Assembly (NCBI GenBank): GCA_902571315.1
Contig: CACGBM010000003.1
Coordinates: 1-64,000 of the forward strand
Source of the DNA: Rhodospirillaceae bacterium
GTDB taxonomy: Bacteria > Pseudomonadota > Alphaproteobacteria > TMED109
Direction: 5' to 3'
Length of the DNA: 64,000 nt
In this document: positions 4,796 through 11,087 of the stretch, piece after piece
Position numbering within the stretch: the stretch's first letter is position 1
How the letters are laid out: every line of letters begins with the position of its first letter
Notes under the pieces: model-generated
The model's database searches: none
The model's input: the letters and a program-made list of their open reading frames with translations, nothing else
What the model was told of the DNA's origin: nothing
Program-made: the position numbers and the translations under genes

Positions 4796-6118
4796 TTAAT
4801 AATTAATTGAAGGACCCCAATCTGGATCAGAAGCTTCGCCTTTAGTATCTAATTTTTTTTCTAGGTTTCCGGTAATATCAATTGTAAAAATAGAAGAAAT
4901 TAGTTTATTATTTAATTTAAATACTTTATTAAATATTAAAGTTCGTCCATTTGGAGACCAAGAAGGGCTTTCAGTTAGATATCCAGTAGCAATAATTCTT
5001 TCACCAGAACCGTCTTTTTTAATAAGTCCAATAAAAAATTTATTTCTATATGTTTTAGTAAAAGCAATATAGTCTCCTCTAGGTGACCAAACAGGAGTTG
5101 CATAACTACCCTCACCATATGAAATTCTTTTGGCTTTTTTTGATATGTCACCATTGTTTCGTTTGATATATAAATTTTGTTTTCCGGACCTATCAGAACT
5201 AAATACTATCCATTTATTGTCCGGGGAAAATGAAGGAGAAGTATTGATGTGCCTATTATTAGTGATTTGAATAATTTCATTATTATATAATTTCTGTATG
5301 AAAATATTTGAGCTGCCTTTTTTTGTAAGAGAAAATATAATGTTTTCACCATCTGGAGAAAACCTAGGTGCAAAACTCATGCCTGAAAAATTTCCTAAAA
5401 TTTTTTCCTTTTTTGTATTTATATCTAATAAATAGACTGTGGGTTTTTTATCTGAAAATGACAAGTAAGCAATTTTTTTTCCATCTGGAGAAAATCTTGG
5501 AGTAATTGCTATATCTTTGCCATCAGTTAAATACTCATGATTATTTCCATCATAATCCATGATAGCTATTCTTTTAGATACATTATTAGCTGTTTTTTCT
5601 TCAGCGATATATACTAACCTGGTATCAAAATATCCTCTTTCTCCAGTTACACGTTGGTAAACTAAATTTGATATAATATGAGCTATCACTCTTAAGTTAT
5701 CATTATTTAAAACTTCAATTTTTTTACTCAGAATTAATTTTTCTCTATAGACATCCCATAGTTTAATATTAATTAGCAGTTTGTCTTCATCTATATTTAT
5801 TTTTCCACTTACAATAAGGTTAGCATCTATTAAACTCCAATCTCTAAATAAAGGTTGGAAAAAAACTTCTTCTTCATTTTGTAAAAATGCGCTATTTGCT
5901 ATTTGTCTGAATAAGCCTGAGTTACTTAAATCATTGGAAACGATTTCAAAAATCTTACTACTAATTATTTTTTCTTTTACTGATTTATAATTAAATTTAG
6001 TTATTGCTATCGGTAATGGTTCAATAACGCCTTTTGTTACATCAATTTCTATAGGAGTTGAATGTAGATTTTTAAATAAAAAAACAATTAAAAGTAAATA
6101 TAATTTTAAGTTAATCAT
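4796..6118 (-). CDS. tolB: Tol-Pal system beta-propeller protein TolB
   Basis: Periplasmic protein that shuttles between Pal and TolA. 440 residues: signal peptide at about 1-20, an N-terminal alpha/beta domain to about 165, then a six-bladed propeller recognised from repeated PRFSPDGKKIAYLS-like blades near residues 208, 252, 295, 341 and 385. It shares its first base with the last base of the tolA stop region, a tight junction implying cotranscription. All expected domains are present. Confidence 0.97.
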   Translation of the reverse strand: MINLKLYLLLIVFLFKNLHSTPIEIDVTKGVIEPLPIAITKFNYKSVKEKIISSKIFEIVSNDLSNSGLFRQIANSAFLQNEEEVFFQPLFRDWSLIDANLIVSGKINIDEDKLLINIKLWDVYREKLILSKKIEVLNNDNLRVIAHIISNLVYQRVTGERGYFDTRLVYIAEEKTANNVSKRIAIMDYDGNNHEYLTDGKDIAITPRFSPDGKKIAYLSFSDKKPTVYLLDINTKKEKILGNFSGMSFAPRFSPDGENIIFSLTKKGSSNIFIQKLYNNEIIQITNNRHINTSPSFSPDNKWIVFSSDRSGKQNLYIKRNNGDISKKAKRISYGEGSYATPVWSPRGDYIAFTKTYRNKFFIGLIKKDGSGERIIATGYLTESPSWSPNGRTLIFNKVFKLNNKLISSIFTIDITGNLEKKLDTKGEASDPDWGPSINY

Positions 6119-6928: not shown

Positions 6929-7342
6929 TCATTTTTTAGGCAAAGTTATTAAATTCACATTTAAAATGCCACTATCGATTATTTGTTTCATTACTTTCAT
7001 TAAAGTATCATAAGTAACAGATTTGTCTGCTCTAATATAAATTTGAGTTTTTGGATTTGCTTTCCTAATTTCTTTTAATTTGTCATTCAGAATATCTGAA
7101 GTAATAAGTTTCTCTGATATAAAGGTTTCGTTTTTTTTATTTATGGTGATTATAATTGGATCTTTGTTTTCAGGAATATTTGGTGTATCAACTTCCGGTA
7201 ACTCAATTTCAACTCCAGTTTGAAGCAGAGGCGCAGTGATCATAAATACAATTAGAAGAACAAGCATGACGTCAACAAAAGGCGTAACATTAATATCAGA
7301 AAGGAATTTTTTTCTACCTCTATATTTAGAATAATATCTCAT
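6929..7342 (-). CDS. tolR: Tol-Pal system protein TolR
   Basis: ExbD/TolR-family subunit of the TolQR proton-driven motor in the inner membrane. 137 residues with one N-terminal helix (PFVDVMLVLLIVFMI) carrying the proton-pathway Asp24, and a periplasmic domain with the ExbD pattern IYIRADKSVTYDTLMKVM. The stop is 7 bases before tolA, and the start ATG touches the tolQ stop at 7342, so Q-R-A are tightly coupled. Confidence 0.97.
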   Translation of the reverse strand: MRYYSKYRGRKKFLSDINVTPFVDVMLVLLIVFMITAPLLQTGVEIELPEVDTPNIPENKDPIIITINKKNETFISEKLITSDILNDKLKEIRKANPKTQIYIRADKSVTYDTLMKVMKQIIDSGILNVNLITLPKK

Positions 7343-8058
7343 TATTTTTTGTTGTGAATATGTCTAGATAGAATATTTGACAGGTCATATAAAAAAATTT
7401 CTAGTGAGTTATAGTATCTATTGGTATCTGATGAAATTTTATTGTATGCCATAACTGCAGGAATTGCAGCTAAAAGACCCATTGCAGTTGCAAGAAGAGC
7501 TTCTGCAATTCCAGGAGCTACTATAGCCAAAGAGGTATTTTTAGATGTTGCGATAGACTGAAAGCTATTCATAATACCCCACACTGTTCCAAATAAGCCA
7601 ATAAATGGAGCAGAAGAACCTGTGGTAGCAAGGAAATTTAAATTTTTTTCTAGTTGTTCTATTTCTCTATTTAGTGTGGAAAACATTGCCTTCTCAATTC
7701 TTTTTTCTAAAACAATATTTTCATCATGATTTATGTTTTTTCTATTTGCAGCGGTGAGTTCTTTCATACCAGTGACAAAAATTGCTTCCATTGGATGGCT
7801 GGGAGAACTTTCTATACTTTTATGAAGTTTTTCTATATTAATACCGGACCAAAAATCATCTTCAAAATTTTTAGACATTTTTCTAAGTTTTCTTAATTTA
7901 GTAATTTTTTCAAATATAATACCCCAGCTAAAAATTGACAAAAAAAGTAGTGATAACATAACCAATCTTACAACTAAATCAGCCTCTAAGATCAGCCCCC
8001 AAATGCTCATATCTAAATCATTTATTATATTAATATCATCGTTCATAACTTTAACCAA
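7342..8058 (-). CDS. tolQ: Tol-Pal system protein TolQ
   Basis: MotA/ExbB/TolQ-family subunit of the Tol motor, with three membrane segments: about residues 25-50, about 140-165 (LFGTVWGIMNSF region) and about 175-205 (EALLATAMGLLAAIPAVMAYN). Conserved glycines and the GTVWGIM motif are all present. The start at 8058 overlaps ybgC by 8 bases; an alternative in-frame ATG four codons later (8046) would remove the overlap. Confidence 0.97.
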   Translation of the reverse strand: MVKVMNDDINIINDLDMSIWGLILEADLVVRLVMLSLLFLSIFSWGIIFEKITKLRKLRKMSKNFEDDFWSGINIEKLHKSIESSPSHPMEAIFVTGMKELTAANRKNINHDENIVLEKRIEKAMFSTLNREIEQLEKNLNFLATTGSSAPFIGLFGTVWGIMNSFQSIATSKNTSLAIVAPGIAEALLATAMGLLAAIPAVMAYNKISSDTNRYYNSLEIFLYDLSNILSRHIHNKK

Positions 8059-8464
8059 AATTTAAAATTTTATGATATAAGGATTTTGGCATTCTAGCAA
8101 CTTTTCCTGTGTTTGATACACAACATAATGTAACTAGAATTTCTGAAATTTCCTTTTTATCTTTATAAAATGTATGCCTAAAGCAGAGTTTTGCTCTATT
8201 AATACTTTCTAAATCAGTAACTAATTTTATTTTATCATCTAATTTACAAGCTAGAATGTAACTAACTTTGAGACTTTTTACTAAAAATTGTACGTTATAT
8301 TTTTCTTTAATAAAAGTTTGTTCTAGTGAGAGGTTCCTTAAAAATTCTGCTCTAGCTCTTTCCGCGAAGTTTAAATATTTTGAATGATAAACAACTCCTC
8401 CAGCATCAGTATCTTCATAATAAATGCGTATATTAATAGAAGAACTTAAATTGTATAAAGACAT
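8051..8464 (-). CDS. ybgC: Tol-Pal system-associated acyl-CoA thioesterase YbgC
   Basis: Hot-dog fold thioesterase encoded with the tol genes throughout proteobacteria; it hydrolyses short or medium acyl-CoA and is linked to phospholipid metabolism. The catalytic signature YYEDTDAGGVVYHSKYLNF includes the conserved Asp20. 137 residues is typical. The stop overlaps tolQ and the start is one base from ruvC, so it sits at the head of the tol part of the operon. Confidence 0.95.
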   Translation of the reverse strand: MSLYNLSSSINIRIYYEDTDAGGVVYHSKYLNFAERARAEFLRNLSLEQTFIKEKYNVQFLVKSLKVSYILACKLDDKIKLVTDLESINRAKLCFRHTFYKDKKEISEILVTLCCVSNTGKVARMPKSLYHKILNFG

Positions 8465-8465
8465 A

Positions 8466-8942
8466 TTAATTAGAATTAAATTTTTCTAACCAGAATAAAG
8501 TCAATAAAGCTGCTTCTGCAATACCGTCATTACTTTTAATATTCCAAAGGTCAGATTCCCCGAATTTTAATCTAGCTAGATCTAAACTTTCTTTTTTAGA
8601 AGGACCTAATCCCATTGATTTTTTCCAAATAGCAGGTGCTACATAATCTACTCTTTTAGAATAAATATATGCTAGTGTCTCTATTCCTCCGAAGTTTCTT
8701 CCAAACTGAAAGCTTGAGGTTACTCCTTGTCTTGGCATAGCATGAACTTTTTCGATAATACTTACATCAATAGAATATGTTTGTAATCCTTCAACTACTT
8801 TCTTTGTATCTACTACTTTTTTTCCATAAATTTTAACTATTGGCATTCTTAAAGCAGTAATAATCTTTGGCAAAGAATTTAGACTATTCTTTACAATTGC
8901 TAATCCTCCAGAACTTCCAGGATCTATACCTAAAACTATCAT
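8466..8942 (-). CDS. ruvC: RuvC-like Holliday junction resolvase, phage-type variant
   Basis: RNase-H-fold nuclease in the ruvC position between yebC and ybgC. Acidic residues fitting the active site are Asp7 (IDPGS), Glu64 (IIEKVHA) and the pair Asp139/Glu143 (NDGIAEAALL); classical RuvC has an Asp-Asp pair spaced by three in the last motif. The stretch EKVHAMPRQGVTSSFQFGRN resembles the RuvC-like resolvases of phages more than chromosomal RuvC, as judged from memory. No ruvA or ruvB follows, although they normally lie between ruvC and ybgC. 158 residues is slightly short. Function as a resolvase is likely; whether it replaces RuvC is inference. Confidence 0.8.
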   Translation of the reverse strand: MIVLGIDPGSSGGLAIVKNSLNSLPKIITALRMPIVKIYGKKVVDTKKVVEGLQTYSIDVSIIEKVHAMPRQGVTSSFQFGRNFGGIETLAYIYSKRVDYVAPAIWKKSMGLGPSKKESLDLARLKFGESDLWNIKSNDGIAEAALLTLFWLEKFNSN

Positions 8943-8966
8943 TTTATTTTAACTAACAAACTGTTT

Positions 8967-9704
8967 TTACTCTTTCATGCTAGCGTTTAAATTAACATTA
9001 GAATATACACTTTGTACATCATCATTTTCTTCTAATAACTCTATTAAAGACAATATTTTTTTTTCAATATCGGGATTTAATTGTAAAGGGTTTTTTGCTT
9101 GCCATATTAATTCTGATTTCTCTGGATCTCCAAATTCTATCTCTAACTCATCTCTAAACTTACCGAAGTTTTCTGGAAGACAAGTTGAAATTATATAAGT
9201 GTTTTCTTCAACGACATCTAGTGCGTTTTTATCAATAGAAAAATCAAAAAATTTATCTTTGGAAATATTTTTAGAATTGTATTTTATTGATCCTATCTTA
9301 TCAAAATTAAAACTTGCAGAACCTGTTTCTCCTAACATTCCGCCATTTTTATTTAAGATAGTTCTAATTTCAGAAGCAGTTCTGTTTTTATTATCAGTAA
9401 GGGTTTCAATAATGAAAAAAACTCCATTGCTCGCCACGCCCTCATACCTAATTTCATCATATTGAGTGCTATCTTCATTAGAGTTTGCTTTTTGCAAAGC
9501 CTTATTAATTTTATCATTGGGCATATTTTCATGTCTAGCATTAATTATTGCATTTCTAAGTCTTGGGTTTTGTTTAGGATCAGGCATGCCAGTTTTTCCT
9601 GCTACCGTAATTTCTCTAGCTAACTTAGCAAATAGTTTTGCTCTTTTTGCGTCTTGAGCGCCTTTTCTATGCATTATATTTTTAAACTGTGAATGTCCTG
9701 CCAT
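8967..9704 (-). CDS. yebC: YebC/TACO1-family translation or transcription regulator
   Basis: Conserved YebC/PmpR family; members are described as DNA-binding regulators and, more recently, as ribosome-associated factors easing stalled translation. The N-terminal signature MAGHSQFKNIMHRKGAQDAK is intact, followed by FAKLAREITVA and the family segment YEGVASNGVFFIIETLTDN. 245 residues is standard. It precedes ruvC as in nearly all alphaproteobacteria and is 8 bases from the metallophosphoesterase gene. Confidence 0.95.
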   Translation of the reverse strand: MAGHSQFKNIMHRKGAQDAKRAKLFAKLAREITVAGKTGMPDPKQNPRLRNAIINARHENMPNDKINKALQKANSNEDSTQYDEIRYEGVASNGVFFIIETLTDNKNRTASEIRTILNKNGGMLGETGSASFNFDKIGSIKYNSKNISKDKFFDFSIDKNALDVVEENTYIISTCLPENFGKFRDELEIEFGDPEKSELIWQAKNPLQLNPDIEKKILSLIELLEENDDVQSVYSNVNLNASMKE

Positions 9705-9711
9705 TTAATTA

Positions 9712-10539
9712 TCATAAAAATAATTTTTCATTAGGTATTTTATTTTCTAAAATATCACCTAATATTAATTGTTTCGCAACACTTGACAAGCCTGTATCTT
9801 CAAAAACCTTAATGATTACTCCGCACATAGTATGGTTAGTGCAGGCTGGTTTAATTTTTTTATAACCCGGCTTTTTTAAAAAATTTTCTATCCACTCATT
9901 CTTTTCTCCTCCTATCACTGAATCATAATCTCCACACATTCCAGCATCTGTTTGATATGCAGTGCCATTAGGTAATATTCTGAGGTCTGAAGTAGGAACA
10001 TGTGTGTGTGTTCCAATTATAGCTGTAACTTTTCCGTCTAAGTAATTAGCAAATGCTTGTTTTTCAGAAGCAGCTTCACCATGAATATCTATTATAATAG
10101 CATCACAATTTTTTTTTAATTTAAAATTTTTCATTATATTTTTAATTGATTCGAAAAGATTATCTGACTTTCTCATAAATAGATTACATAGTAGGTTTAT
10201 AACTAATATTTTTTTATTTTTTTTTGTTTCAAATAGAAAAAAACCTTGTCCTACTGACTGGTTTGTTAAATTATTAGGTTTCAATAAATTATTATTTTTT
10301 GCAATGTATGGGATTATTTCATTTTTATCCCAAATATGATTGCCTGTACTAATGACATTTACTCCGGCCTTAAAGAGATTTTCGCTAATTTTTGGTGTAA
10401 TACCATAGCCCTCGGCAACATTTTCAGCATTTGCTATAACAAAGTTAATATTATATTTAGTACAAATATTTCTTAAATTTTTTTTTAAGAAATAAAAACT
10501 GTTCTTTCCAACTAAATCGCCCAAAAATAATATATTCAT
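9712..10539 (-). CDS. YmdB-type metallophosphoesterase (TIGR00282 family)
   Basis: Dinuclear metal phosphoesterase; the characterised Bacillus YmdB hydrolyses 2',3'-cyclic nucleotides. Metal-binding motifs are all visible: GDLVGK near residue 7, NAENVAEG near 39, GNHIWDKNE near 65, DIHGEA near 150 and GTHTHVPT near 177. 275 residues is normal. Its start overlaps the preceding cyclo-ligase stop by 4 bases (ATGA). Its substrate in this organism is not deducible. Confidence 0.9.
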   Translation of the reverse strand: MNILFLGDLVGKNSFYFLKKNLRNICTKYNINFVIANAENVAEGYGITPKISENLFKAGVNVISTGNHIWDKNEIIPYIAKNNNLLKPNNLTNQSVGQGFFLFETKKNKKILVINLLCNLFMRKSDNLFESIKNIMKNFKLKKNCDAIIIDIHGEAASEKQAFANYLDGKVTAIIGTHTHVPTSDLRILPNGTAYQTDAGMCGDYDSVIGGEKNEWIENFLKKPGYKKIKPACTNHTMCGVIIKVFEDTGLSSVAKQLILGDILENKIPNEKLFL

Positions 10540-11087
10540 AATTTCATAATATTTATAGATTTATTAGTAATAATAGCATCTAATTTAAGGTCAAAACTTT
10601 CAACAGGTAGACTGCTTACTTCCTGAAAATCATAACCATAACCTAAATACTTCAAATCTCTATTTTTTTCAAAAAATTTATCATAATATCCTTTTCCATA
10701 ACCAAGCCTATAACCTCTATGATCAAAAGCTAGCATTGGCACTAAAATTAGTTCTGGTTTTCTTTGAATTAATTTCTGTGCAGGTTCATAAAACTTTAGT
10801 CTGTTAAATATGAGATCATCATTTAATTTCCATTGTAAAAATTTTAATTGACCTGAAAAAACTGAGGGTAAAAAAATATCAAATTTTTTTTCTAATAATA
10901 ATTTTATTAATGGTCTAGTATCTAGTTCATACAAAATAGGCCAATATAGACCAATTGATTTAATATTTTTTTTTAAATTAAAAAAAAAATTCTTAGATGC
11001 TGCCCATGCAGCGTTTTCATCTATCGAATAATTTCGTTTTCTTTGAAGCATCATTTTTTTTCGTATACTATTTTTACTATTGTGCAT
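10536..11087 (-). CDS. 5-formyltetrahydrofolate cyclo-ligase
   Basis: Converts 5-formyl-THF to 5,10-methenyl-THF with ATP, keeping folate one-carbon units usable. The C-terminal ATP-binding signature GYRLGYGKGYYDKFF (about residues 124-138) and the segment LILVPMLAFD identify the family; 183 residues is typical. It overlaps zapA by 11 bases. In many proteobacteria zapA and this gene flank 6S RNA; here the overlap leaves no room for it. Confidence 0.93.
   Translation of the reverse strand: MHNSKNSIRKKMMLQRKRNYSIDENAAWAASKNFFFNLKKNIKSIGLYWPILYELDTRPLIKLLLEKKFDIFLPSVFSGQLKFLQWKLNDDLIFNRLKFYEPAQKLIQRKPELILVPMLAFDHRGYRLGYGKGYYDKFFEKNRDLKYLGYGYDFQEVSSLPVESFDLKLDAIITNKSINIMKL

Follow-up and report, generated by a model that had tools for sequence, protein, structure and literature searches.

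The window, by which we mean the whole 64,000-nucleotide stretch of DNA analysed here, contains a gene for a protein of 158 amino acids with an ATG start (8466..8942, minus strand) that profile matches, the predicted fold and a protein tree mark as a phage-type RuvC resolvase. Its upstream flank is yebC (8967..9704, minus strand; NF001030, 303.9 bits versus a cut-off of 243, with TIGR01033 also over its cut-off). Its downstream flank is the gene for a ybgC-type acyl-CoA thioesterase (8051..8464, minus strand), which exceeds the cut-off of TIGR00051 (92.7 versus 68.7) and stays under that of TIGR02799 (124.3 versus 141.35). tolQ follows (7342..8058, minus strand; TIGR02796 over cut-off), and then two genes that we take to be tolR (6929..7342, minus strand) and tolB (4796..6118, minus strand), in a gene order that is the same among relatives. 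On the other side lie a gene of conserved position for a ymdB-like metallophosphoesterase (9712..10539, minus strand), whose match to TIGR00282 falls just below the cut-off (253.1 versus 254.15 bits), and, as outer flank, what is presumably a 5-formyltetrahydrofolate cyclo-ligase-like gene (FTCL; 10536..11087, minus strand). The complete string reads FTCL-ymdB-yebC-(phage-type RuvC)-ybgC-tolQ-tolR-tolB. One base (8465) separates the resolvase gene from ybgC and 24 bases (8943-8966) separate it from yebC, and therefore neither ruvA nor ruvB can fit at this locus. A preliminary description of this DNA had placed a phage-type RuvC in the ruvC slot with ruvA and ruvB missing, and the arrangement from yebC to tolQ agrees with it. 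The G+C content of the gene is 30.8%, compared with 28.2% for the whole window.

The protein stays below the thresholds of the cellular RuvC models, with 12.1 bits against TIGR00228 (cut-off 100.65) and 19.9 bits against PF02075 (gathering cut-off 22.2; E 7.1e-4), and its sequence points to a distant relative of the cellular RuvC family described by PF02075. Its residues 1-155 match PHROG 1770 (E 1.3e-23), a family annotated as 'Holliday junction resolvase', and of the solved structures chloroplast MOC1 comes closest to it in sequence (E 6.7e-4). An AlphaFold2 model built from 38 aligned sequences (pLDDT 92.2, pTM 0.88) likewise has MOC1 as its top match (Z 21.2, rmsd 1.9, 150 residues aligned, 25% identity) and reaches Z values of up to 17.6 against cellular RuvC. 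All 18 structural matches listed with Z >15 are MOC1 or RuvC, and Foldseek returned the same leading structures. The protein is thus predicted by its model to be a member of the RuvC-fold (RNase H-like) nuclease family.

Both motifs singled out in the preliminary description, EKVHAMPRQG (residues 64-73) and NDGIAEA (residues 138-144), are present and invariant in an eight-row alignment of the closest relatives. NDGIAEA is also invariant in 25 aligned rows, in part as a product of the search, since viral relatives were sought with this very motif. Among 38 aligned proteins from hosts and viruses, D7 and E64 do not vary, and D139 is retained in at least 90%. Placed by alignment with MOC1 and by spacing relative to the RuvC of phage bIL67, the catalytic acids are putatively D7, E64, and D139 and/or E143. 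The catalytic tetrad reported for tobacco MOC1, D116, D118, E175 and E258 (PMC7078210), aligns with D7, G9, E64 and E143, and we match D139 and E143 to the last two bIL67 RuvC acids because both pairs have the same four-residue spacing.

Relatives in the marine alphaproteobacterial family f1 bear out the suggested replacement in situ. Seven loci from genera g2, g4, g5, g7 and g8 read yebC-ruvC-ruvA-ruvB-ybgC-tolQ-tolR-tolB, and five loci from the sister genera g1 and g6, the window included, carry a single phage-type gene instead of ruvCAB between the same flanks and in otherwise the same order. The remaining f1 loci with the phage-type gene have a consistent order up to their contig ends; the position is the same in all eight gene-bearing f1 genomes and in AG-900-F16, a single-cell genome with the same slot arrangement. 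An assembly gap hiding ruvAB at the slot was considered and rejected, as contigs span the slot with both flanks. A quick tree built from the flanking proteins in concatenation unites g1 with g6 (SH-aLRT 100) and places this clade within f1 (100), beside the ruvCAB genera. The phage-type gene is under purifying selection in f1, with dN/dS values of 0.10-0.32 (21 pairs) next to 0.08-0.28 for yebC (15 pairs); G020 was left out for an ambiguous base, and G014 additionally from the yebC set. The simplest account is one replacement in the ancestor of g1 and g6, followed by vertical descent under purifying selection.

A genome-wide profile search of the window genome (G000; 1.03 Mb, 54% complete) gave no ruvA match, no ruvB over the cut-off and no TIGR00228 match. 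As this genome is only 54% complete, the claim that ruvABC has been lost rests on its relatives. All ten g1 and g6 genomes gave the same result for the three genes, and those that carry the window protein include two that are >90% complete (G010, 97%; G014, 91%). The genome-wide search for ruvA and ruvB that the preliminary description proposed as a check found neither across these ten genomes, for ruvB in the sense of none over the cut-off. Within f1 as a whole, ruvA was found in 16 of 28 genomes, with ruvB and ruvC over cut-off in those same 16, and the window protein in eight (four of six in g1, four of four in g6). No f1 genome has both ruvABC and the window protein (0/28), and four have neither: G007, G013 and two members of g1, G002 (57% complete) and G005 (61% complete). 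In G005, G007 and G013 the profile search likewise did not find yebC; the slot may simply be unassembled there, and these genomes are evidence neither way.

Relatives of the window protein are encoded on 31 viral contigs, with identities of up to 54%, in a sample drawn with host motifs as the search seed; for isolated phages the best identity is 34.9% among the matches listed. Profile searches of 90 viral loci gave no match to yebC, ybgC, tolQ, ymdB or tilS, and at three of the loci (L028, L029 and L032) primase-, terminase- and portal-like genes, named by reading translations, lie nearby. The protein tree started from 190 proteins, of which 147 remained once duplicates and those of <130 residues had been removed (L074 was omitted for its damaged start); clustering brought the viral and prophage rows down from 133 to 62, and the final 77 rows have no classical RuvC among them. 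The f1 proteins and that of AG-900-F16 form one clade (99/94), sister to the viral L028/L033 (98/87) and within a larger viral clade. A viral ancestry, with the window protein nested among viral proteins, is well supported by this tree. The preliminary description would have been contradicted by ruvAB elsewhere in the genome together with a protein grouping with ordinary RuvC; instead, we found no ruvA and no ruvB over the cut-off in the ten g1 and g6 genomes, and the model scores and a tree without classical RuvC point to phage RuvC.

A grouping of the flanking genes of AG-900-F16 with those of f1 g1 and g6 was rejected (AU p 0.0001). If the flanking-gene tree is right, the resolvase gene would therefore have been captured twice, from related phages, or have passed from one host to another. 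As a separate observation, the chloroplast proteins NtMOC1 and ZmMOC1 group with the viral RuvC-type protein L250 in the 77-row tree (93/89) on a long branch, as might be expected if MOC1 came from a phage.

The window case is one of several replacements at this slot. A profile search matched ruvA in 350 of 385 alphaproteobacterial genomes. Six genomes had a ruvA match under the cut-off, and three of these with weak matches (G076, G187 and G200; E 2.8e-4 to 9.5e-4) were counted as lacking the gene, together with the 35 genomes in which ruvA had no match (for 15 of these the absence was deduced), giving a ruvA-lacking set of 38. Directly after yebC, 17 of the 38 carry a phage-type resolvase gene: the window genome, four genomes of family f98, one of f118, eight of f31, f24 and f141, and three of f50. 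Family scans covered two type A proteins, one type B protein, one f98 protein and the f118 protein. The f98 and f118 slot proteins are two further RuvC types and both match PHROG 1770 (E 6.3e-36 and 7.7e-22). The slot of f31, f24 and f141 holds a nuclease of ~105 residues (type A) that matches PHROG 2002, also named 'Holliday junction resolvase' (E 8.5e-8 for f31, 2.1e-6 for f24). For type A, neither of two Pfam scans brought up a family above its cut-off, and sequence matches to solved structures were at chance level. The type A motif E..D..ExK (E10, D35, E44, K46) is invariant in 15 viral rows, and when the structure predicted for a viral relative (pLDDT 81.7) serves as query, archaeal Hjc ranks first, though weakly (Foldseek E 0.021, Z 7.2). 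We label type A Hjc-like because of the PHROG 2002 match, the E..D..ExK pattern and this weak match of the viral relative's model. The f50 slot holds a nuclease of 168 residues (type B), represented in the scans by one protein that matches PF24608 PDDEXK_15 (79.9 bits versus a gathering cut-off of 27; E 2.7e-22) and PHROG 244, 'RusA-like Holliday junction resolvase' (E 1.3e-13).

No ruvB match exceeds the cut-off in any of 17 genomes from f98, f118, f141, f50, f31 and f24 (0/17), a set that includes one genome whose slot was not seen (G295). Weak ruvB matches in these genomes (17.6-38.9 bits versus a cut-off of 299, mostly to part of the profile) were rejected as real RuvB, and the f50 gene labelled RuvB is an AAA+ match that we take to be FtsH. 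The surroundings of the slot vary: at the f50 loci L325 and L326 the nuclease gene is followed by a tilS-like gene, named by reading, and then by an AAA+ gene, probably ftsH, rather than tolQ. At seven loci of f31, f24, f141 and f98 (L323, L324, L327, L328, L330, L321 and L322, two of them from f98) no ybgC match lies between resolvase and tolQ. The other 21 ruvA-lacking genomes, 16 of which were read by eye, comprise six with classical ruvC after yebC, seven with no resolvase in the stretch read and three in which yebC was not found; in one of the seven, G044, ruvC was found elsewhere. The six with classical ruvC after yebC and no detected RuvA are G134, G145, G246, G348, G110 and G175 (loci L092, L093, L095, L098, L112 and L115).

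A 16S probe for SAR11 matches two f98 genomes exactly and the other two with two mismatches, and it matched none of 20 other genomes tried, drafts that may lack 16S. On account of these probe matches, f98 is probably SAR11.

Several lines of evidence bear on whether these enzymes entered their hosts once or repeatedly. A single origin of the 13 host RuvC-type proteins was rejected (AU p 4.8e-6), as were joint origins of the f1 type with the f98 type (p 1.1e-5) and with the f118 type (p 5.1e-6), counting AG-900-F16 with f1. The f118 type lies inside another viral clade (100/88), the place of the f98 type among viral RuvC proteins is weakly supported (92/80), and their viral relatives are up to 53% and 48% identical, respectively. 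The two PD-(D/E)XK slot types belong to different family matches; relatives of type A occur on 54 viral contigs with identities of up to 77%, and the f50 type has a single viral relative at 67% identity. A single host origin of the Hjc-like nuclease is compatible with the data (AU p 0.10; f31 with f141, p 0.36). On the flanking genes, a single clade of the replaced rows (n=15, f50 excluded for short data) was rejected (AU p 0.0008) in tests that omit six of 34 rows with <900 columns, both f50 rows included. The flanking-gene tests are limited by uneven base composition, and groups were picked after the trees were seen. In the viral loci L120 and L122, the gene for the Hjc-like resolvase stands directly before one that reads as a large terminase, an arrangement that suggests a phage role in DNA packaging for this resolvase.

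We propose that ruvC-ruvA-ruvB was lost in the ancestor of g1 and g6, and that the gene of a tailed-phage resolvase would have taken its place within the yebC-ybgC-tolQ string. Most likely, the protein is a nuclease of the RNase H fold that depends on metal and works as a dimer; it would cut Holliday junctions, probably along with other kinds of branched DNA, and do so without being loaded by RuvAB, while junctions would be moved by RecG and by spontaneous migration. The displacement itself is well supported: the family and predicted fold of the protein, its position, the missing ruv genes, its viral ancestry and purifying selection are all shown here. We infer the dimer, the cutting activity, the independence from RuvAB and the cooperation with RecG, and RuvAB-free function of the window protein would follow by analogy with the bIL67 enzyme. 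Taken together, we hold it to be highly probable that a stand-alone phage resolvase displaced RuvABC in g1 and g6, with RecG moving junctions, and that such displacement recurred at the same site elsewhere.

RecG is reported to be able to move junctions (PMC1193525). Of the genes that the preliminary description suggested looking for, recG was recovered in part: full-length matches of 560-573 bits occur in five of the ten g1 and g6 genomes (G001, G004, G010, G014 and G017), and none was found in the window genome, which is 54% complete. No RecG match in the 28 f1 genomes reaches the curated cut-off of 659.4, with full-length matches at 560-649 bits, and for this reason RecG was called in f1 by length and score. 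Full-length RecG matches also occur in 17 of 17 genomes of f98, f118, f141, f50, f31 and f24, over the cut-off in five. Genus g8 (G012, G015, G018, G021, G023, G025 and G027; 92-97% complete) shows the reverse of g1 and g6, where RecG is found without RuvABC: all seven genomes have ruvABC, and their best RecG-model matches cover about positions 209-608 in frames of ~1200 residues and look like Mfd.

The viral ancestry of the window protein would also be expected of a prophage or mobile-element remnant at a chance site with no role in host recombination. We rejected such a remnant, and consider it very improbable, on the strength of its conserved position within a housekeeping string on both sides in all eight gene-bearing f1 genomes and AG-900-F16, dN/dS values like those of yebC, an ordinary G+C content, and the lack of any f1 genome that combines it with ruvABC. 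Vertical descent from a cellular RuvC that diverged after the loss of RuvAB and acquired phage-like motifs by convergence would account for a gene in the ruvC position. The nesting among viral proteins, supported at several nodes of a tree without classical RuvC, and the 12.1 bits against TIGR00228, a model matched over cut-off in all 16 ruvCAB-bearing f1 genomes, make this explanation exceedingly improbable.

Displacement of RuvABC must also be weighed against a role of the enzyme at forks, flaps or branched phage DNA, with Holliday junctions left to RecG, YqgF or an unrecognised resolvase. Promiscuity is described as typically greater among viral than among bacterial resolvases (PMC3864405), and YqgF has been named as a possible resolvase (PMC1193525). 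Such a role is at odds with the mutual exclusion of the gene and ruvABC in f1, and with the fact that the slot is elsewhere filled by other families with PHROG-named Holliday junction resolvase functions. As those families differ and share this annotation, their common property seems to be junction cutting, which argues for resolution as the selected function, and we regard a purely fork- or flap-directed role as improbable. In another, unlikely history, the streamlined lineages would descend from a common ancestor that had lost ruvCAB once, long ago, and stand-alone resolvases would later have been swapped for one another. The proximity of f98, f31, f141, f24 and AG-900-F16 in the flanking-gene tree and the compatibility of the Hjc-like host protein with one origin are in keeping with it. 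It conflicts with the position of g1 and g6 inside f1 beside ruvCAB genera, and with the rejection both of a single clade of replaced rows and of a clade uniting f1 g1/g6 with AG-900-F16, within the limits set by composition bias and post-hoc groups.

Because further streamlined Alphaproteobacteria show a similar displacement at this place, involving four additional phage-type resolvase lineages, we describe the site as acting like a 'resolvase slot'. With less assurance, we lean towards the view that the yebC-ybgC/tolQ junction is an alphaproteobacterial resolvase slot in which the whole of RuvABC was replaced by stand-alone phage resolvases of five lineages, three of them RuvC types, one Hjc-like and one PDDEXK_15, probable SAR11 included. 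RuvABC is the textbook bacterial resolvasome. If our account is true, some of the most abundant bacteria of the ocean permanently finish recombination with a captured phage debranching nuclease and RecG, and resolvases are exchangeable parts supplied by the phage pool. Phage pressure on RuvABC could drive such swaps. If f98 is SAR11, these data would show how a highly abundant bacterial group resolves recombination junctions. The ruvCAB-bearing sister genera provide a natural control, and the system makes the sufficiency of RuvAB-free resolution testable in a free-living, recombining bacterium. We found no earlier report of such a displacement of RuvABC in the open-licence literature, and novelty is accordingly unproven.

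Several known systems resemble the one described here. The phage genes of PHROG 1770 are alike in that the match is near full length and the nearest non-cellular relatives are viral (up to 54% identical), whereas the window gene is chromosomal, keeps its position over two genera and occupies the ruvC slot without ruvAB. Chloroplast MOC1, which is not known to depend on RuvAB, offers the closest solved fold and the best sequence match; however, its second aspartate (NtMOC1 D118) corresponds to G9, and the full tetrad is absent from the window protein. The RuvC of Lactococcus phage bIL67 is reported to restore UV resistance to E. coli delta-ruvABC, with a survival of 0.60 compared with 0.62 in ruvABC+ cells carrying the same gene, and its catalytic acids are given as D8, E71, D145 and D149 (PMC3864405). 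It shares with the window protein the RuvC fold (Z 15.5) and a final pair of acids four residues apart, but it is a phage gene, is 16% identical over aligned residues, and has an aspartate in place of E143. RecU is described as having replaced RuvC in Firmicutes and Mollicutes by non-orthologous displacement (PMC1193525, PMC3403352), and RuvA and RuvB are reported for every RuvC-containing organism examined in one of these studies (PMC3403352). In the RecU case RuvAB is retained and recU lies mostly apart from ruvAB. In contrast, what is new here is that all three ruv genes are missing and that a phage-type newcomer sits in their old locus, in several families.
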